Below, one piece after another: positions 15,215 through 29,875 of a stretch of 64,000 nucleotides of DNA. Position 1 is the stretch's first letter. The number at the start of each line of letters is the position of its first letter. Where the stretch lies: the NCBI GenBank assembly GCA_944393245.1, contig CALXZM010000002.1:62001-126000 (forward strand), written 5' to 3'. The position numbers were made by a program, and so were the translations under genes. The DNA comes from an uncultured Alphaproteobacteria bacterium (lineage in GTDB: Bacteria; Pseudomonadota; Alphaproteobacteria; Rs-D84). The notes beneath the pieces were generated by a model. The model did not search any database. It saw only the letters and a program-made list of their open reading frames with translations, and had not been told where the DNA came from.

Positions 15215-15234
15215 CCTCGGGCTTATGCCCGGGG
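15215..15234 (+). terminator. Rho-independent terminator after gap
   Basis: CCTCGGGC / GCCCGGGG hairpin with TTAT loop immediately after the gap stop. Confidence 0.75.
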
Positions 15235-15286
15235 TCTTACGTTTGCAAAGATAAAAATTCCATGTTTTTAATTTGCTATATGTCTG

Positions 15287-16249
15287 TCACTTTGCACCAA
15301 ATGCCACATCAAGTTTTATACCAGATCCATTTTCTTGGAACTGAATTAATCCATTAGCCTCTGTTGGCCTGCCATTTTCTGGCTTTGGTGCATAATAATG
15401 TACATCCATATTGGCCCCGGACATAATAATATTTCCATTTATATCCGGTTGAATTTCAAACTTTACCAAATTTTCCTTGTTTTTATAATTACTAAACATA
15501 ATTGTACCAGAATCATTATCTTGTACACTTATATCATACCAATTATCAAATACCGCCCCAAGGGTGCTGATACCATTTTCATCATTAAAGTTAAGAGTTA
15601 CTTTACCATCTAACTTAATAGCAGCAGAATCTGAACTGGCTTGTCCAACAGCTTTACCCGTAAATTTTACATTACCGGCAATGTTTGAAGTTTCTATTCT
15701 ATTTGCGGTATTAATATCTATAAATGGAATGTTTTCATTTATGATGGTTTGGTCATTGGCAACATATGATTTATCTATTTCATAGGTTCCAAAATTAGAA
15801 TAAGATAATCCTAACTCTTTTCCCAAAGAAACATATTCTTTTACATCTGCTGTATTTATTTTATTCGTATACATCAAACCAGAAATTCTACGAGACGGTC
15901 TGCCCCCTGTGTTGTCTGAAGCCTCATATTCAGATGCATCACTATGATCATCATTTGGTGTATGATTTGAACTGTTTCCTCTACCATCACTGGGCACATA
16001 ATTTTCATTATTTCCCCGTCCACCAGCTGGATTGTGTCCGTCAGAATTACCACGATCATCTGCTGGTGTATTTGGCACTTCACCCCGATCATCGCTTGGT
16101 GTACGACCAGATGAATCGCCACGGTCATCAGTTGGAATATGTGGGCTACATCCTCTACCATTATCCACACAGGTTGGTGTATAACCTCCGCCCCCGCCAC
16201 TGCAAGCACTCAACAATACAACTATTATCAAGCAAGTTATTTGTTTCAC
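15287..16249 (-). CDS. TbpB-like surface lipoprotein with repeat linker (A)
   Basis: A 320-residue lipoprotein starting at GTG (16249), chosen because GGAGAG lies 6 bases upstream; an ATG at 16288 would put 13 residues before the signal. The lipobox is LLSAC. Residues ~30-105 are a hydrophilic linker of degenerate 11-13-residue repeats centred on (T/S)P-x-DDRG. The C-terminal ~185 residues match the barrel-like domain of the paralogues at 16941, 19278 and 28679: GLSYSNFGTYEI, FDNWYDI, DVHYYAP, DVAFGAK. That domain resembles transferrin-binding-protein-B type barrels. It lacks the helical N-terminal domain of its paralogues, so it may present the barrel on a flexible stalk. Slam-dependent surface export is inferred. 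Confidence 0.75.
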   Translation of the reverse strand: MKQITCLIIVVLLSACSGGGGGYTPTCVDNGRGCSPHIPTDDRGDSSGRTPSDDRGEVPNTPADDRGNSDGHNPAGGRGNNENYVPSDGRGNSSNHTPNDDHSDASEYEASDNTGGRPSRRISGLMYTNKINTADVKEYVSLGKELGLSYSNFGTYEIDKSYVANDQTIINENIPFIDINTANRIETSNIAGNVKFTGKAVGQASSDSAAIKLDGKVTLNFNDENGISTLGAVFDNWYDISVQDNDSGTIMFSNYKNKENLVKFEIQPDINGNIIMSGANMDVHYYAPKPENGRPTEANGLIQFQENGSGIKLDVAFGAK

Positions 16250-16332
16250 TTTTCTCTCCAATATAATTATTTTTGAGTCTATGATCATTTATTATAAGTA
16301 TAACAAAAATATACAGTATAAAAAAGGGGTAA

Positions 16333-16392
16333 AAAAACGGTCAACCCAACAGCAGTCATTTTTATTATGGGAATGCTTGGTTGACCGTTTTT
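16333..16392. terminator. Long inverted repeat / terminator
   Basis: Perfect 14-bp arms (AAAAACGGTCAACC and GGTTGACCGTTTTT) around a 32-base loop, between the lipoprotein A gene and the glycine-rich pseudogene. A and T runs at both ends suit a bidirectional terminator. Confidence 0.6.
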
Positions 16393-16410
16393 ATATGTTT
16401 TTTTAGAACA

Positions 16411-16738
16411 TTAGCGGACTTTTTGTTGCGCTTTTCTTAGTTGTTCCAGCTTAAGCAGCCAAACTGCACCATTTCCCCCGATACCACCAGCACCACCTTG
16501 ACCATTGATACCTCTGCCGGCGGCTGTTGGATTCGTACCGTTTTGTCCTGACGTCCAAGCACCGCCACCACCGCCAGCGGCACCATCGTCACGTGTGGCT
16601 GGTCTATAATTATTAGCACTGGAAGTTCCACCTTTTGCACCATCACCCCCAGGTCCAATTAACTACAACCTTATAAGCACCAGCATCTAGTTCTACAGAA
16701 TAAATTCCTGCTGATTCGAATTTATTGAATGCTTCCAT
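16411..16738 (-). pseudogene. Frameshifted glycine-rich protein gene
   Basis: The ATG at 16738 has a perfect AAGGAGG ribosome-binding site. Translation gives about 31 residues, ending at an in-frame stop right after the sequence equivalent to GAYKVVV. One base shifted, the frame continues as GPGGDGAKG, then Gly-rich sequence (GGGGGAWTSGQNGT) to a stop at 16411, ending LEQLRKAQQKVR. The whole aligns with the intact 300-residue gene at 18202-19104 (GTYKIVAIGPGGDGANG ... WTSGADGT ... LQQLKKKQRIR), but is much shorter. A single inserted A in GTTAATTGGA explains the break. It could be a true pseudogene, a phase-variable frameshift or an assembly error. Confidence 0.7.
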
Positions 16739-16940
16739 GCTGTCCTCCTTTGTTATATGACTATGTATTATTTCATAGCCTTCATTTTTTATACTGTATT
16801 GTGTACAACGTTTTACAAATACTTTTACTTTAGAAATTACAATTTAATCAGTTGAAAAAGAAATACGTTGCAGCACCATTAATTAATAGATGTCGACTGC
16901 ATTTTTGATTTATGTTATAATTTTGTTAAAGGAGACATAA

Positions 16941-18164
16941 ATGAAAAATTTATATTGCCCTTTGCTTATACTATCATTAGCAGCATGTGCAACTGATAAT
17001 ACACTGGATAAATCTTACTCCTATACTGATAGATATGATCCGACTATAGAAATTCCGTATGCAAATTTAGCCCATGAAAGTAATAAAAAAGTTACGAGCA
17101 TGATTTCTACTACAGCAGATCAATTAAACAGATATATTGCGGCCAAATTAGGGGGATATACAGGATATCCGCCAATCAATGCATATGACGATATTGCAAA
17201 TATGGCTGTGTGGTTAACATCCCAAGAACCCGATGCAAGTGATATAGAAGATAAATATTATGAAAATATGGCTTTATTACATCAAGCAATGTACGTTATA
17301 AATAAAGACTTGGCGCGATGTGTAAACATAGGCAGTTCATATGGTAAAGACGCGGGTACCTGTTTTGTTAATTGGCGTAAAAATAACGAAAAACAATTTA
17401 ATGAGGCCAAAAACAACATTCTTGAAAATGCTTATCTAATAGACATTCGTGATGCGCAGTTTGTTACTAATGATGACACTGTTCTAAAATTTACATTGGC
17501 CGAAGGTCAAGCATATGGTGGCGATGGAAAAATTACTGCAATAGTTGTTAATGATGAACAATATAATCGCATTGATGATACAAATAAATTTGAAAATGAA
17601 AATTCTATTTTAACATACAATTCTGTTGGCAAGGATTTAGGATTGTCGTTTTCTGATTTCGGTACATATGATATATTAACAAAAAACCAAGATACCGGTG
17701 ATGTAACGCAACATATTGCAACCGATGTTCCTTTTGCCGGCGGATATGAATCACAGCAAATTGTTGACATTGCGAATGATGTGCAATTTACTGGGCGTGC
17801 GGTTGGGACTGCATCAAACGAAAATCAGGTTGTTGACCTGGCCGGAAATGCAACATTAAACTTTGATAAAGATTCCGGCATCAGTACACTGGGGGCACAG
17901 TTTGATAACTGGTATGACATCGTTGTAAAAAACGATGATACGGGCAGCATAACTTTTACAAATTACAAAAACGCCTATGACCAGGTAAAATTGGATAGCA
18001 CCCCAGACGCCGACGGTGTAATTTCATCCACTGGTGCAAAAATGGATGCGCACTATTATGGATACGTTCCAGAATCAGGCATACCGACCGAGGCCGCGGG
18101 ACTGGTTCAATGGACTGAATCGCCGGGTGGCGCAAAAATGGACATTGCATTTGGCGCAAAATAA
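16941..18164 (+). CDS. TbpB-like surface lipoprotein (B)
   Basis: A 407-residue lipoprotein with signal LILSLAAC and an AAAGGAGA ribosome-binding site. Residues ~45-220 form a largely helical domain shared in pattern with lipoproteins C and D (ESNKKVTSMIS, MYVINKDLARC, CFVNWR). The C-terminal ~180 residues are the barrel-like module (GLSFSDFGTYDI, FDNWYDIVV, MDAHYYGYVPESG, AAGLVQW, MDIAFGAK). That module is identical to the one in lipoprotein C, while the N-terminal domains are strongly diverged. The family resembles Slam-exported TbpB/factor-H-binding-type lipoproteins, so a surface ligand-binding role is inferred; the ligand is unknown. Confidence 0.8.
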   Translation: MKNLYCPLLILSLAACATDNTLDKSYSYTDRYDPTIEIPYANLAHESNKKVTSMISTTADQLNRYIAAKLGGYTGYPPINAYDDIANMAVWLTSQEPDASDIEDKYYENMALLHQAMYVINKDLARCVNIGSSYGKDAGTCFVNWRKNNEKQFNEAKNNILENAYLIDIRDAQFVTNDDTVLKFTLAEGQAYGGDGKITAIVVNDEQYNRIDDTNKFENENSILTYNSVGKDLGLSFSDFGTYDILTKNQDTGDVTQHIATDVPFAGGYESQQIVDIANDVQFTGRAVGTASNENQVVDLAGNATLNFDKDSGISTLGAQFDNWYDIVVKNDDTGSITFTNYKNAYDQVKLDSTPDADGVISSTGAKMDAHYYGYVPESGIPTEAAGLVQWTESPGGAKMDIAFGAK

Positions 18165-18188
18165 CAAACGGGGCACACGCCCCGTTTT
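17626..18188 (+). repeat. 563-bp near-identical duplication, copy 1
   Basis: This stretch, covering the last ~180 codons of lipoprotein B plus its terminator, repeats at 19999-20561 with one difference that I could find (C at 17696, T at 20069, synonymous). Flanking sequence on both sides is diverged. Confidence 0.95.
18166..18188 (+). terminator. Terminator after lipoprotein B
   Basis: AAACGGGGC / GCCCCGTTTT hairpin directly after the stop; part of the duplicated block. Confidence 0.8.
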
Positions 18189-18201
18189 CGTTACTGTATA
18201 T

Positions 18202-19104
18202 TTAGCGAATGCGCTGTTTCTTTTTCAACTGCTGCAAAACTATATCCTTAATCCATATACAGCCAACGCCTCCGACCCCGCCTATACCACCATTACCGTT
18301 AACGCCAGCCCCTGTTCCACTGGCAGCGGTGCCGTCTGCCCCAGATGTCCAAGCACCACCACCGCCAGCACCAGCACTTCCAGCGATACCAGTTGCTGCC
18401 GGTCTAGATGCTGGCGCAGTTCCATCTGTTCCATTACCGCCGTTTATTTTTGCCGCAATATCGGATAATGTAACAGAAGCAAAGTTATCTGCAGTTATAT
18501 CTAATCCGTTTTCCTGCGCTCCTATTCCTCCTCTACCTCCTTCTCTAATTTCAGAAGCGGGGTTATTTCCACCAACACCTCCTTTGGCCGCAGTATAACT
18601 GTTTACGGTATGAAGAGTACCAGGTATAGAATCTGCCCCGTTATAGAATTCTCCCTTGCCACCATCTGTCTTAACGGGTATAACAGTCGTTCCCCTTTTC
18701 CCCATTAAGCCACCAGCACCTCCACCACTAGTTCCGTGATAATTTTCTGCTGCTAATGAATTACCTGGTATAACACCATTAGCACTTTCGGCTTTAGGAA
18801 GTGATATACTCTTTAATATTTGAGAGCTATTCATAAAATCGGCAATTATTATTGAAGTTTCTTGTGCCGTTATTGTTATACCCACAGTAGCAATAGCTTC
18901 TAATGAGAATGTTTCCATATAAATATATGCTCCTGCGCCACCGCCTGCACCATCTGCCCCATCAACAGTACCATATTGAGCACCATTATCTCCGGTGGCC
19001 TTGTTACCATTTGCTCCATCCCCACCTGGTCCTATTGCAACTATTTTATAAGTTCCCGGCATTAATCCAAGTGTACCATTTGCAGTAAAATGAACCAAAT
19101 CCAT
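18202..19104 (-). CDS. Glycine-rich tail-fibre-like protein
   Basis: A 300-residue protein, about a quarter glycine. It opens FTANGTLGLMPGTYKIVAIG, resembling the entry strand of phage-tail and surface proteins that precede Gly-rich sheets. Several GGxGG clusters follow, and the end is basic (LQQLKKKQRIR). There is no signal peptide, so export, if any, would need a special route. A GGGAGAAAG ribosome-binding site precedes the ATG. It lies between lipoproteins B and C, divergent from C, and a broken paralogue sits in the same relation to lipoprotein B. Function unknown; it may be phage derived or a partner of the lipoproteins. Confidence 0.65.
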   Translation of the reverse strand: MDLVHFTANGTLGLMPGTYKIVAIGPGGDGANGNKATGDNGAQYGTVDGADGAGGGAGAYIYMETFSLEAIATVGITITAQETSIIIADFMNSSQILKSISLPKAESANGVIPGNSLAAENYHGTSGGGAGGLMGKRGTTVIPVKTDGGKGEFYNGADSIPGTLHTVNSYTAAKGGVGGNNPASEIREGGRGGIGAQENGLDITADNFASVTLSDIAAKINGGNGTDGTAPASRPAATGIAGSAGAGGGGAWTSGADGTAASGTGAGVNGNGGIGGVGGVGCIWIKDIVLQQLKKKQRIR

Positions 19105-19277
19105 ATCTTTCTCCCTTTGTTTATAATTGATAAAATATCAATTATCTGTTTTTAGAAATAACATTTTATATAGTACTTTCAATATAATATTGAATCAAAT
19201 CTCAAAACTATTAAATTGACTATATATTCTACTATGATATACTAATATACATGCGCTTTATCTAAAAGGAGACCGAT

Positions 19278-20537
19278 ATGAAATGGAATCACATAATTGC
19301 GCTATTGTTCGCGCTAAGTGCGTGTGGTGGAAATACTGATTCGCGTTCCTATCCATATCAAGACAGACCACACAATCCAATGGGAACACCGCAAAATCCA
19401 ACACAGCCATTTGAAAATCCGGCCAGCGAAAGTAATGCCAAAATAACATCAATGATATCACATAATGACGCGCAAATATCTGATTATATAAATTATCGGC
19501 TAAATGAATGGAATCTATACAATGGGGATAAAGGTAAAGATATTTCCAGAACAGATATTGCCGATGCCGTATTATTCTTATTGGATAAAAACAAATCTGT
19601 TTCAGATATAGAACAACATTTGGGCAAAAATTCAACGCTGTTTCATATGGCGGCGTATGTAATAAATAATCCGCTGAATTCGTGTTTTTCCGGCACTGGT
19701 AACCCCGCACAATGTTTTGTTGATTGGCGCGACAAAATGGCTGACGATTATTTTGACCAAAATATAGCAAGCCCCATTTATGAAAATATAATAAATCTGA
19801 ATATTCAGGACGCAAAATTTGCATCAATTGATGGTACACAAATCAATTTTATAATAAATGACACTGGACAAATAACCAGCGCAAATATAACAAATGATGC
19901 AAATACTAATACATATCAAAATCACAATGGAAACAATTTTTATAACATAAAAATTGATGGCGATGAATTTATTCAGGATGTATTTACTTACAATTCTATT
20001 GGCAAGGATTTAGGATTGTCGTTTTCTGATTTCGGTACATATGATATATTAACAAAAAACCAAGATACTGGTGATGTAACGCAACATATTGCAACCGATG
20101 TTCCTTTTGCCGGCGGATATGAATCACAGCAAATTGTTGACATTGCGAATGATGTGCAATTTACTGGGCGTGCGGTTGGGACTGCATCAAACGAAAATCA
20201 GGTTGTTGACCTGGCCGGAAATGCAACATTAAACTTTGATAAAGATTCCGGCATCAGTACACTGGGGGCACAGTTTGATAACTGGTATGACATCGTTGTA
20301 AAAAACGATGATACGGGCAGCATAACTTTTACAAATTACAAAAACGCCTATGACCAGGTAAAATTGGATAGCACCCCAGACGCCGACGGTGTAATTTCAT
20401 CCACTGGTGCAAAAATGGATGCGCACTATTATGGATACGTTCCAGAATCAGGCATACCGACCGAGGCCGCGGGACTGGTTCAATGGACTGAATCGCCGGG
20501 TGGCGCAAAAATGGACATTGCATTTGGCGCAAAATAA
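19278..20537 (+). CDS. TbpB-like surface lipoprotein (C)
   Basis: A 419-residue lipoprotein (lipobox ALSAC, ribosome-binding site AAAAGGAGA). After a Pro/Asn-rich linker, residues ~55-240 are a helical domain related to, but far from identical with, that of lipoprotein B (ESNAKITSMIS, AYVINNPLNSC, CFVDWRDK). The C-terminal ~180 residues are identical to lipoprotein B. The contrast between diverged N-terminal and identical C-terminal halves suggests recent gene conversion. Slam-dependent display on the outer surface is inferred from the Slam homologue at 27316-28677. Confidence 0.8.
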   Translation: MKWNHIIALLFALSACGGNTDSRSYPYQDRPHNPMGTPQNPTQPFENPASESNAKITSMISHNDAQISDYINYRLNEWNLYNGDKGKDISRTDIADAVLFLLDKNKSVSDIEQHLGKNSTLFHMAAYVINNPLNSCFSGTGNPAQCFVDWRDKMADDYFDQNIASPIYENIINLNIQDAKFASIDGTQINFIINDTGQITSANITNDANTNTYQNHNGNNFYNIKIDGDEFIQDVFTYNSIGKDLGLSFSDFGTYDILTKNQDTGDVTQHIATDVPFAGGYESQQIVDIANDVQFTGRAVGTASNENQVVDLAGNATLNFDKDSGISTLGAQFDNWYDIVVKNDDTGSITFTNYKNAYDQVKLDSTPDADGVISSTGAKMDAHYYGYVPESGIPTEAAGLVQWTESPGGAKMDIAFGAK

Positions 20538-20561
20538 CAAACGGGGCACACGCCCCGTTTT
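19999..20561 (+). repeat. 563-bp near-identical duplication, copy 2
   Basis: Second copy of the block at 17626-18188, offset by 2373 bases, with a single synonymous difference at 20069. It ends just past the terminator hairpin. Confidence 0.95.
20539..20561 (+). terminator. Terminator after lipoprotein C
   Basis: AAACGGGGC / GCCCCGTTTT hairpin after the stop, with a longer T run than the copy after lipoprotein B. Confidence 0.8.
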
Positions 20562-20614
20562 TGTTACTGGTTGCTGGTTAGTAGTTACTCGTTATTCGTG
20601 ACTTGTATATACCC

Positions 20615-20706
20615 TGTCATTGCGAGCGTAGCGAAGCAATCCAGTAAATATATGCGACTTTGATTATAACTGGATTGCCACGCCACTGACGTGGCTCGCA
20701 ATGACA
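20615..20706. repeat. Dispersed palindromic (REP/MITE-like) element
   Basis: Two inverted arms, 20615-20645 (TGTCATTGCGAGCGTAGC...) and 20669-20706 (...GTGGCTCGCAATGACA), around a short AT-rich centre. A single arm of the same family occurs at 45559-45589. The sequence to the left (GTTACTCGTTATTCGTGACT) also resembles, inverted, the stretch next to the 45.6-kb copy. Such repeats are common in host-associated alphaproteobacteria. The rest of 20562-21053 holds no convincing gene. Confidence 0.75.
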
Positions 20707-21053
20707 CAGTATGTAATAAATGACGTCGTATTTTCTGTCTGTGATTATCGGACATTTTACGCCCCCTGGTTAATAAAAACACCGCCGTGATGAAGGGCGG
20801 TTGGGGATTCATAATTACAAAGACAAGCAGTGTCACTTATTCAATATATTCCGCGCCCCAACCGCAAGAGTTGGAATTTGTGTTTTCTGGGTTACTATAC
20901 CCCGCACCGGTAATCGTCCGATACGATGTAGATTATTGCATATAACTTGTTATATTCTAGCCTTTTTATGTGGTGCGGGGTTCCGGCAGTAAATTTTATA
21001 AAAAAACTTCTTGCATTTATTCCGGGAACAATATAATATATGCTTTGCTCTTT

Positions 21054-24657: not shown

Positions 24658-26430
24658 TCAGACTAAATGCGATTCATGTAATAATTGTTCTAAATATGTG
24701 CCACGAACACGTTTTAAGCCCTGTTTTTCCAACAGTTTCATTACCCACGGAACGTCTATGTCACGCAATTTCTTTTTATCATTCAGATAATAAACACTTT
24801 GCAACAACATACGTATATCAAAGCAGGAATCAAATACCTCTGGTACGCCACGGTCGATATTCAACAGGGTATAGACGGCCTCCATCGCGGTACGAACGGA
24901 ATATTCCGTCGTAAATACGGTATCACGTTCGGTTTCTGCATAGTTGCCAATAAACGCCAAGTTTACAGAACCGCGTGGCACAACCAACGGGCGATCGCCC
25001 AATGCGCGTGGCATAAAGTATGTCGTTATGTACGGCATATGACTGGGAACAGTACTGGATCGATTATGGGCTATATCATCTATCTGTGATTCAGGAACAC
25101 CAATATGGTACAGCCATTCTGCACATAATTCCGCCCCTGTGCATTCAGTAATTTTCTTTTTTACATAGTTGCCATTTGTGTCCGACAACAACCCATATGT
25201 CCAAACAACAATCTGGTTCGTTTTTTGCGCACGAAAGTGTGGCTGACGTGAAATGCTGAATCCATACAGCCAATTTGAATCCTTTATAGTAACTGGACCA
25301 CTGCTGACAATTGAACCACTGTGCGGATTCTTTTTACAAATCTTTTCAATATACGGAACAACAGTATCATCGTTCAGCGTTATTGTTGCGGATATAACCC
25401 AATTCGCCGCAGGTATGTTTTCACAGAATTTTTCTGGGCGACCAAACTCTTTGCACTGTGCGGCCAGATTTTTCCACAACTGCCACGACGCGCCCAGTTC
25501 GTGCCGTGTATCTGCGGCCGTATCATTGTCGCCGTATGTCGTACTTTCAGTAATAGACCCGTTTGTTACAAATACCAAATCGTCCAGTGTCAGGTTTATT
25601 TCGCGTTTGCGGCCGGATTTGACAAGTTCTATTTTTTTCGCAACTTTTTTGTCTGACTTGCAATCAACAACTATATTTTTCACGATTGTGTCAAAGTGAA
25701 ATTTTACCCCGTGTGATTCCAGCCACCGTACCAACGGCATTATCAATGATTCATATTGGTTATATTTTGTAAATTTCAGTGCCGACATATCCGCCAATGT
25801 GCCAACGTGATGAATAAACCGCAATATATATCGACGCATTTCCATCGCACTGGACCACCGTTCAAACGCAAACATCGTTGCCCAATACAGCCAAAAATTA
25901 GATTCAAAAAATTCATCACTAAACACTTGGTTTATTTGAACATCTTGCAACTTTTCTTCGGGTGTCAAGGCCAAATCAATCAGTTCGCGTATCGCCGTCG
26001 GTGTCAGCGTCAATTTACCATCACTGGGCATACGGTGTCCACGACGTTCTATGACACGACAATGCGAAAAACTGGGGTCTGCCTTGTTCAGCCAATAAAA
26101 TTCGTCCAGTACGGACACATCAGGATTTTCCAATGACGGGATAGACCTAAACAAATCCCACAGTGTTTCAAAGTGCGCCTCCATCTCTCGACCACCACGA
26201 ATAATAAAACCGCGCTGGGGATTTTTTATACCGTCCATACTGCCGCCGGCAATGGGCAATTCTTCGAAAATATGAATCTTGTTGCCGCGCATTTTGCCGT
26301 CGCGAATCATAAATACCGCCGCCGCTAATCCTGCCAGGCCACCGCCAACAATATACGCCGATTTTTTCGTCGCGTCAGACGGTGGCAGTGGGTTGGCAAA
26401 TGCCTCGTAATTACCATTACTGTGATACAT
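24658..26430 (-). CDS. ohyA: Oleate hydratase
   Basis: A 590-residue FAD-dependent enzyme of the myosin-cross-reactive-antigen family that adds water to the cis-9 double bond of oleic and related acids, giving 10-hydroxy fatty acids. The dinucleotide site [13 protein letters not shown] is near residue 25, and [15 protein letters not shown] near 80 is the conserved active-site region. I start at 26430 because GGAGAG lies just upstream and homologues begin at this Tyr-His-Ser-Asn sequence; the ORF is open to 26541. Family knowledge links it to detoxification of host or dietary unsaturated fats. It is standalone. Confidence 0.93.
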
Positions 26431-26524
26431 AACTCTCTCCTTCTTGTTATTATTGAGATATATAGAAATTCTAGACCGATTACGCGTGTAAAATAAACAG
26501 GACTGATTTCCCCAGTGCAAATAT

Positions 26525-26554
26525 TTGACATCATGTGCCACAGATGTCTATAAT
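26525..26554 (+). promoter_or_regulatory. Leaderless promoter for lptM-like gene
   Basis: TTGACA, 18-base spacer, TATAAT; the -10 ends 6 bases before the ATG at 26561, so transcription should begin at the start codon. Confidence 0.7.
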
Positions 26555-27315: not shown

Positions 27316-28677
27316 TTAAAACCGACGGGCCATCGTGAATTCAACCGCCCAACGATCATATTCGCGTTGCCACATGTTGGAATCGCGGCGGGTGTAACTG
27401 AATATAATCGTCGGAACAAATCCCAATATATCAAATTTATTATTTGATAATGATAATGCGTAACGTTGGGTAAAATCGCGTTCTGTTACCTGGGTAAATG
27501 TGCCGTTTTGTACAGCCCATTGTGGCGCATCATACAGTTGCCAATAAACAGATGGCGAAAAATACACATTAAATCCGTATGGCAATTCAGCACCAATACC
27601 AATACTGACATTCGGCATCCAATATGAATACGTGGGCGATACGGTATCTTCACGGGAAATGCCACCACGTAAAATTGAATATATATTTGATGTTATTGAA
27701 TAAAACATGTGTATGTTTGCTGAATAAGTATCCCCATTCAAATATTGGCCATAATAATCATAATTATTTGATAAATATTGCAGTGTAACCCCACCCGATA
27801 ATTTACGCGACAAATCATAATTCATGCTTAACCGCGCACCCGCCGACAAATTATATTCACGCCATCCATACCAACGGCGCGATGCCACAGCGGCCAACCA
27901 TATATCACCATGCGACCAAATATATCGTGGCCCCGTTGACGCATACAGGTACAAATCATCATAATCATGCAGGTTATAAATATTGGCATAAACACCTGCA
28001 TCAGATTTCCAACGCCATTGGTCAGACAACCTGAATTCATAATCCCCACCAAAGGCAACGTTAAATCCAACTGCGGATTCTGGTTCGATTAAATTACGAC
28101 ACAGTGGACCAAATATTGTGATAATGCATTCACTGCCACCCGTGGCATTATTGACATTATTATCTGGCGCGGCCCCAAAATTAAACCAAATATTCCAATT
28201 TTTATTTTGTCGCACCACGTATCGATAATAATTCATCATCTGGCGCACATTTTCCGGCAAATCATCCCCAGCCATCGCCAGTCGCAATTGATAATCTGCA
28301 CGATACCATTGTGATGTTTTCATATAGCATACGGCCAATTCAAAACGAACACGCGCCAAATCTGGTTGGGCATCTAATATGGTCCTGAATATATCAATTG
28401 CCGTTTTATAATCAGCACGTGCAGCACTTAAACGCCCCAGTAAAAACCAACGTTCTAATTCCAGCGGCCCGCCACCAAACGATGGCATTTTCGTTAATAT
28501 TTGTTCCGCGCCAGTCAATTCCCCGTTATCAATCATTGCGGCCACAATTTTCAGTGCGTCAACCGCAGTCATTGTGATTTCCGTTGTGCCGTCCGCATTT
28601 GTTTTTGATGATGATAAATCTGCCCAAGACAGATTGGGCAGTAATGTTATAAATAAAATGATGAAAAATTTTTTCAA
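27316..28677 (-). CDS. Surface lipoprotein assembly modifier (Slam, type XI secretion)
   Basis: A 453-residue outer-membrane protein: signal peptide, a TPR-like periplasmic domain (residues ~35-150, LLGRLSAARADYKTAI and LARVRFELAVCY), then a barrel of about 14 strands ending in the signature IIFSYTRRDSNMW ... WAVEFTMARRF. This matches Slam (DUF560) proteins, which move lipoproteins such as TbpB and factor-H-binding protein to the cell surface. It follows a TbpB-like lipoprotein gene with a one-base gap, the classic cargo-translocon pairing. Three related lipoproteins at 15-20.5 kb are likely further cargo. Confidence 0.85.
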   Translation of the reverse strand: MKKFFIILFITLLPNLSWADLSSSKTNADGTTEITMTAVDALKIVAAMIDNGELTGAEQILTKMPSFGGGPLELERWFLLGRLSAARADYKTAIDIFRTILDAQPDLARVRFELAVCYMKTSQWYRADYQLRLAMAGDDLPENVRQMMNYYRYVVRQNKNWNIWFNFGAAPDNNVNNATGGSECIITIFGPLCRNLIEPESAVGFNVAFGGDYEFRLSDQWRWKSDAGVYANIYNLHDYDDLYLYASTGPRYIWSHGDIWLAAVASRRWYGWREYNLSAGARLSMNYDLSRKLSGGVTLQYLSNNYDYYGQYLNGDTYSANIHMFYSITSNIYSILRGGISREDTVSPTYSYWMPNVSIGIGAELPYGFNVYFSPSVYWQLYDAPQWAVQNGTFTQVTERDFTQRYALSLSNNKFDILGFVPTIIFSYTRRDSNMWQREYDRWAVEFTMARRF

Positions 28678-28678
28678 A

Positions 28679-29875
28679 CTATCTCTTTACGCCAAAGGCA
28701 ACGTCCATATTTATATCCCCGTTTTCATATCGTATCAGACCCGCGGCCTCGGTCGGGATGCCGGTTGCTGGATTGGCACCATAATATCCCATATTCATAT
28801 CTGCCGTTCCGGATACCGTATCTGTGGGTAATTTAAAATCGTCCGTACCACGATAATCAGAAAATACAATATTGGCGGTTGTGTCATTCATGTCCTTGGT
28901 CACGGTGATGTTATACCAATTATCAAACCCAGCCGTTAATGTGGATTGACCACTATCCTTGGCAAAGGTCAATGTCGTACTGTCGTCACGAATGCCAATT
29001 TGTTTGCCACCACCATTTGTAACGGTCCCAACCGCCGCACCAGAAAATTTTATATCTGTTTCAATGTTTTGCTGAACAACGGTTTCACCAATTCGTTTTG
29101 TATCATATCCACCGGCAAATGCAATTTGGGGACCAGATACACCGTCCGTTGTTATCTGATACACACCAAAATCAGCATATGACAGTCCCAGTTTTGGATC
29201 CAAAATACCATCGGAATTCGTCGCCCCAGATGTGTATTTCAATGTTGAATTACCATTTGTAAATACTGTTCCGTCACCACTGCGCGCATATTCCGTGTCA
29301 TCAACCGTCACACCAGTGATTTTTCCATTGGCATCCACAGAAAATTTCAATGTTTTATCCGTACCAGCCGCAGTTGTAAAATCTATATCCGAAATATCCA
29401 ATTTGTCCGCATGGGCGCGCAAATCCGTCAAACGATTTTTTAACAATTCAGCGTTGTTTGCCCGCCAATCATCAACACACGACATCACATTTGTGGCCCC
29501 ACCACATGCATCCAACAATTCCGGCGACACAACATACATCGCAGCCCGACGCGTTTCATCATCTGCGTCTGCGAAATTGCCACCACTGGCAATATTCAAT
29601 GCCGTTTGGGCGACATCCGCATAATCCAATGTTGATGCAGCCGAATATCCACGTAATTTATGACCGATATATTTATTAATTTGCGCATCATTTGTCGCAA
29701 TCATCATGCTTACTTTTTTATTACTGTTTGCGGCGGCATCGGTAAATCTGTCCTTGTCCGGGGTCAAATTTCCAAAATCGCACGAACCATACGGCCCAAC
29801 ACACGTTGGTGTTCCACCATCACTGCACGCAGTCAATATAACAGCCAACATAATTAAGTACGGGAATTTTTTCAT
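28679..29875 (-). CDS. TbpB-like Slam-partner lipoprotein (D)
   Basis: A 398-residue lipoprotein (lipobox LTAC) with AAAGGGGTGG upstream. The helical N-terminal domain shares ANSNKKVSMMIATNDAQ and an AMYVVSPELLDAC ... CVDDWR core with lipoproteins B and C. The C-terminal barrel-like module carries GLSYADFGVYQI, FDNWYNITV, MGYYGANPATG and MDVAFGVK. It is first in a two-gene operon with Slam, so it is the best candidate for direct surface export. Its barrel has clearly diverged from the B/C pair, so it was not part of their recent exchange. Confidence 0.82.
   Translation of the reverse strand: MKKFPYLIMLAVILTACSDGGTPTCVGPYGSCDFGNLTPDKDRFTDAAANSNKKVSMMIATNDAQINKYIGHKLRGYSAASTLDYADVAQTALNIASGGNFADADDETRRAAMYVVSPELLDACGGATNVMSCVDDWRANNAELLKNRLTDLRAHADKLDISDIDFTTAAGTDKTLKFSVDANGKITGVTVDDTEYARSGDGTVFTNGNSTLKYTSGATNSDGILDPKLGLSYADFGVYQITTDGVSGPQIAFAGGYDTKRIGETVVQQNIETDIKFSGAAVGTVTNGGGKQIGIRDDSTTLTFAKDSGQSTLTAGFDNWYNITVTKDMNDTTANIVFSDYRGTDDFKLPTDTVSGTADMNMGYYGANPATGIPTEAAGLIRYENGDINMDVAFGVKR

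Follow-up and report, generated by a model that had tools for sequence, protein, structure and literature searches.

Lipoprotein B of the analysed DNA probably owes its C-terminal barrel and terminator to a recent, gene-conversion-like recombination event that replaced those it had before, an occasional swap of a module and not programmed switching. The window (the whole analysed stretch of 64,000 nucleotides) comes from an apparently draft genome of an alphaproteobacterium of the genus Candidatus Enterousia (0.93 Mb, 97% complete, 7 contigs). The order Rs-D84, which includes Enterousia, consists of gut bacteria with reduced genomes (PMC12306168). Four members of one lipoprotein family, A to D, are found in this genome, all of them complete; their positions are collected in Table 1 together with those of neighbouring features.

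A barrel and terminator shared by lipoproteins B and C

The two copies of the repeat in B and C align at an offset of 2373 over 563 bp with one difference, a C/T exchange at base 17696 that is synonymous (ACC and ACT, both Thr); the longest exact stretch measures 492 bp. The description in the initial annotation, of a block including the terminator that is identical but for one synonymous base, is thus exact. Its interval, 17626–20561, gives the outer limits of both repeats and also includes the unrelated Gly-rich ORF on the opposite strand, for which no Pfam or NCBIfam match was found. The edges of the block are abrupt: bases 17625 and 18189 are mismatched, and the further matches (9 upstream, 7 downstream) are background. 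The block comprises the last 179 codons (residues 229–407 in B and 241–419 in C), the stop codon and a closing terminator hairpin of −16.8/−17.5 kcal/mol.

Table 1. Positions of the lipoprotein genes, the shared block and neighbouring features in the window
Feature	Position	Strand	Remarks
Region with A, B and C	15215..20711	.	Absent from Ca. E. intestinigallinarum
Lipoprotein A	15287..16288	-	Lipobox; N-part of low complexity with recurring DDRG/DGRG motifs; C-terminal barrel shares 52% identity with the B/C barrel
Remnant of Gly-rich ORF	16411..16738 (ends approximate)	-	Frameshifted; between A and B
Lipoprotein B	16941..18164	+	407 aa; B-type N-domain, replaced barrel; likely recipient
Shared block, copy in B	17626..18188	+	Barrel, stop codon, hairpin (18167–18188); one mismatch (17696)
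Gly-rich ORF	18202..19104	-	300 aa; between B and C, outside the repeat
Lipoprotein C	19278..20537	+	419 aa; C-type helical N-domain, same barrel as B
Shared block, copy in C	19999..20561	+	Barrel, stop codon, hairpin (20540–20561)
Slam (surface lipoprotein assembly modifier)	27316..28677	-	Predicted exporter; PF04575, E = 6e-35
Lipoprotein D	28679..29875	-	Immediately upstream of Slam; barrel shares 48% identity with the B/C barrel

Upstream of the block B and C share 37% protein and 50% DNA identity, in agreement with the strong divergence of the N-terminal halves noted initially. In the barrel dN is 0 and dS 0.008, whereas dS is saturated in the N part (about 2.0). This difference in synonymous divergence points to recombination as the origin of the repeat and not to duplication followed by selection. 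We therefore consider it very likely that the repeat was made by recombination, and the initial suggestion that this was recent holds. The match is not a chance one: among 2,336 family pairs, B–C ranks first for how far barrel identity exceeds N-domain identity (by 65 points, against a mean of 12.7 with an sd of 8.4), followed by B and C against a gene of a relative described below (G059_X) and then by a gene of genome G060. The B–C tract was also significant in a codon-shuffle test (0/1,000 shuffles).

Some further features lie around these genes. The remnant of a Gly-rich ORF has an open counterpart of 336 aa between A and B in genome G141 (L102). A palindromic repeat, TGTCATTGCGAGC...GCTCGCAATGACA, has intergenic copies at 20570–20710 and at G000:C5:108544-109248 (L095). 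As the AACGGGGCNNNNGCCCCGTT hairpin is present at no fewer than eight other sites of the genome, we also considered an uptake sequence borne by the terminator; this was rejected, since the hairpin has the look of a common terminator and the search for an unusual 10-mer in the window yielded none that stood out.

Probable direction and source of the exchange

In order to read the direction of the exchange we used trees of the N-domain and of the barrel. The N-domain tree places B with the B-type genes of G135, G141, G136 and G178 (support 100/99) and C beside G172, G023 and G180 (91/84). The barrel tree unites B, C and G059_X (100/99) and separates them from the B-type barrels (100/97); all three belong to a larger clade together with A-type barrels and those of C's relatives (100/96). 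Forcing the barrel of B to its orthologues was rejected by the AU (p = 0.013) and KH (p = 0.008) tests but not by the SH test (p = 0.32), and the N-domain and barrel topologies rejected each other (9e-8 and 1e-114). Since the N-domain of B goes with B-types and its barrel with C, B was likely the recipient, its barrel coming from C or from a donor of C- or A-like type. The trees behind this direction are built on a domain with some 175 columns. The actual donor could be C itself, a lost gene or a third genome.

The nearest named relative is Ca. Enterousia intestinigallinarum (G059, OX097180.1; loci L059 and L074 are from this record), whose genome is a single contig. Here only ∼80 bp separate gapA from the META-domain gene region; the corresponding stretch of the window is 5.5 kb long and carries A, B and C. 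A single gene, G059_X, lies at another locus near ligA (L059:9722-10555), at which the genome of the window has no lipoprotein; empty sites are thus found in both directions. The N-part of G059_X is A-like (48% protein identity to A). Its last 131 codons and terminator are 96.2% identical to B/C over 398 bp, with a dS of 0.11, whereas dS is 1.7 in the barrel portion just before this tract; for comparison, five flanking genes (gapA, META, miaA, Slam and parC/gyrA-like) give dS values of 0.5–1.24 between the two genomes. The tract shared by C and G059_X was significant in the codon-shuffle test (0/1,000 shuffles). The terminator of the cassette is of the same type in both genomes, and the gapA terminator of the relative is nearly the same as that of C at the corresponding place of the window, which suggests that terminators may act as 3′ joints. 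One copy of the TGTCATTGCGAGC...GCTCGCAATGACA repeat sits where the relative carries its chimeric lipoprotein. Low divergence between the two species is not unique to the lipoproteins: a 627-aa gene (24658–26541, minus strand) has a dS of 0.17, far below most neighbours, and judged by this value was possibly transferred recently between them. Its product may resemble the oleate hydratases.

The similarity to G059_X raises an alternative in which B and C each received their barrel cassette from a G059_X-like donor, with no conversion between them. We hold this to be unlikely, but it is the strongest competitor: the cassette of the relative is 96% identical at a dS well under that of most neighbouring genes, and genes of the ComEC and DprA families are present in the genome. 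Such genes also occur in species that are not known for DNA uptake. Against such an import, B matches C at 99.8% and G059_X at 96.2%, so that the simplest view of the latest exchange is one between B and C, or one from a single source common to both.

Less probable is an assembly artefact, with a single barrel duplicated into both genes. The assembly is an apparent draft of 7 contigs and an exact repeat of 492 bp is troublesome for short-read assemblers, but the copies differ by one base and the sequences downstream of them diverge immediately. In addition, the orphan B-type barrel expected in this case was not found in the genome, whose four members are all complete, and another species with a single-contig genome has the cassette, at 96%, behind a third N-part.

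The replacement of the barrel of B is the preferred explanation. The barrel and terminator would have been overwritten, presumably by homologous recombination, from C or from a near-identical donor. The 5′ junction would lie where the barrel begins, in the conserved segment YNSxGKDLGLSFSDFG, and the 3′ junction at the terminator or immediately beyond it, places at which the B and C genes could pair. The outcome would be a B-type N-domain with a foreign barrel. An exchange of this kind probably placed most of the barrel cassette behind the A-type N-part in Ca. E. intestinigallinarum, and others probably took place independently elsewhere in the genus.

Exchange in the genus and predicted export

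The family was found in 90 of 156 Enterousia species. Besides G059_X, three further, independent cases support the proposal of the initial annotation that modules are exchanged. The first is the G060 gene, a clear chimera, whose middle matches P-type genes of G150, G173 and G141 and whose barrel matches neighbouring Q-type genes; identity switches over at a single place, and the pattern was significant in the codon-shuffle test (0/1,000). The tree of this gene alone does not reject the topology without a swap (AU p = 0.35), and the case for a chimera rests on the DNA profile. In G136 and G178, adjacent A and B genes have a common tract of 127 bp that is 89% identical, while the barrels outside this tract show about 55% DNA identity; both tracts were significant in the codon-shuffle test (0/1,000). 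Finally, G059_D combines the N-domain of one D subtype with the barrel of another (AU p = 4e-4). A reading of genes in G145 and G152 as an E-type N-domain on a D-type barrel found no AU support (p = 0.11) and was not counted.

The initial annotation spoke of gene conversion that homogenises the barrels. As a process within genomes this was not borne out: barrels paired within one genome (29 pairs) did not resemble each other more than barrels of different genomes did (median percentile 0.56, Wilcoxon p = 0.61; p = 0.39 when the B–C pair is left out), and genus-wide homogenisation was rejected. The repeated cases taken together with the lack of a general likeness within genomes indicate that barrel exchange is recurrent but occasional.

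For the same reason we give little credence to an antigenic-variation system, in which expressed genes would undergo ongoing conversion with cassettes, with a constant barrel and a varying outer domain. Three points would fit such a system: the proteins are predicted surface lipoproteins, one gene is a mosaic, and exchanges have recurred in the genus. In the 97%-complete genome, however, no silent cassettes, orphan N-domains or fragments were found beside the four complete members, and the exchanged piece is the barrel with its terminator and not the variable exposed domain. Also, among B orthologues the N-domains have not diverged further than the barrels have (54% and 53%, respectively). A continuing homogenising or antigenic-variation system is accordingly not supported, and an immune role is presumably absent. 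The least credible explanation is tandem duplication of one gene, followed by fast adaptive divergence of the N-domains while Slam recognition conserved the barrel. It draws on the tandem arrangement of B and C and the opposite-strand Gly-rich ORF or remnant ahead of each, which make an old duplication of the whole unit possible as such. As the cause of the B/C identity it is refuted by the synonymous sites, which show saturation upstream but hardly any change within the barrel. It also conflicts with the separate clades of the two N-domains, each with orthologues in other species, and with the barrels of A and D, which in this genome reach only 40–52% identity to the others.

The same A and D barrels speak against the idea that the barrel is held constant for recognition by Slam, as the genome has a single SlipAM match, adjoining D, with A, B and C ∼7–12 kb away. 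Constraint on the protein cannot make synonymous sites identical, so conservation for Slam does not explain the repeat. As judged from sequence, the values instead suggest that one Slam may serve barrels in which half of the residues differ.

That the proteins are Slam cargo at all, as initially proposed, is plausible. A motif search found a lipobox in A, B, C and D (LSAC, LAAC, LSAC and LTAC, respectively, residues 16–29). No Pfam or NCBIfam match of note was obtained for the barrel or the family proteins, and the barrel had no sequence match in the PDB, including in a search with the family profile. Fold models were of modest confidence (pLDDT 56 and 64), the alignment behind the first including two L074 proteins and the second being built from an alignment of window and L059 sequences only. 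The model of C consists of a helical N-domain (residues 64–171) and a C-terminal beta domain with a poorly modelled linker. Barrel strands are predicted in the C-terminal domain (pLDDT 64), and the barrel alone gave TbpB as its top Foldseek match (E = 3.8e-4, probability 1.00, TM about 0.4 with a model of pLDDT 64), followed by NHBA and HphA. The lipobox, the TbpB-like barrel model, the Slam gene in the genome and the described layout of such cargo (PMC12282271) together lead us to read B, C and their relatives as plausible surface lipoprotein cargo of Slam (type 11 secretion), and B and C would then be exported by it. In G022 and G012 family members are present while a SlipAM match is absent; Slam is either missing from these assemblies or diverged. 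A second lipoprotein, E, lies between D and Slam in G059 (L074:2771-6619) and likewise in G026 and G018; the window has only D and Slam, hence E was probably lost or moved.

A more far-reaching and tentative idea is that the barrel and terminator form a portable export cassette that might travel from one lipoprotein gene to another, unrelated one, and also across loci and species. Recombination would take place at the conserved beginning of the barrel and at terminator hairpins of a common type, and the resident Slam would thereby gain control over new N-terminal domains.

Comparison with known systems

Slam-dependent surface lipoproteins are the cargo of the type 11 secretion system (Hooda 2017, PMC5449769; Grossman 2025, PMC12282271), with a layout of N-terminal effector, pedestal and C-terminal barrel (PMC12282271). 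The proteins described here resemble them in the lipobox, the variable N-terminal 'effector' part and a C-terminal barrel predicted to be TbpB-like, the proposed Slam-targeting domain, and D adjoins a Slam gene. Unlike known Slam cargo, they match no Pfam or NCBIfam model, have an alpha-helical N-domain, and A, B and C lie at a distance from Slam. Variable N-parts on a shared barrel have already been described (PMC12282271), as have mosaic tbpB alleles (PMC2386816); in the text of the former we found no mention of shuffling, modularity or gene conversion. In a limited literature search we found no account of a barrel being transferred from one cargo gene to a non-orthologous one. The repeat provides direct sequence evidence, in an uncultured gut lineage with small genomes, that genes which are not orthologues can exchange the proposed Slam-targeting barrel as one piece. 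Natural chimeras of this kind could be used to test whether the barrel alone decides export.

Gene conversion underlies antigenic variation in vlhA and pilE/pilS. With VlsE of Borrelia our case shares gene-conversion-like patches in a surface protein (PMC9159922). In contrast to all three systems, no silent cassettes were found here, the exchanged part is a conserved C-terminal barrel, and the events look rare. In Neisseria, too, recombination has given rise to mosaic genes: tbpB codes for a surface lipoprotein whose barrel is of the kind described here (PMC2386816). The recombining partners in that case are alleles of a single gene from different strains and species, whereas here barrels cross between non-orthologous genes and loci.
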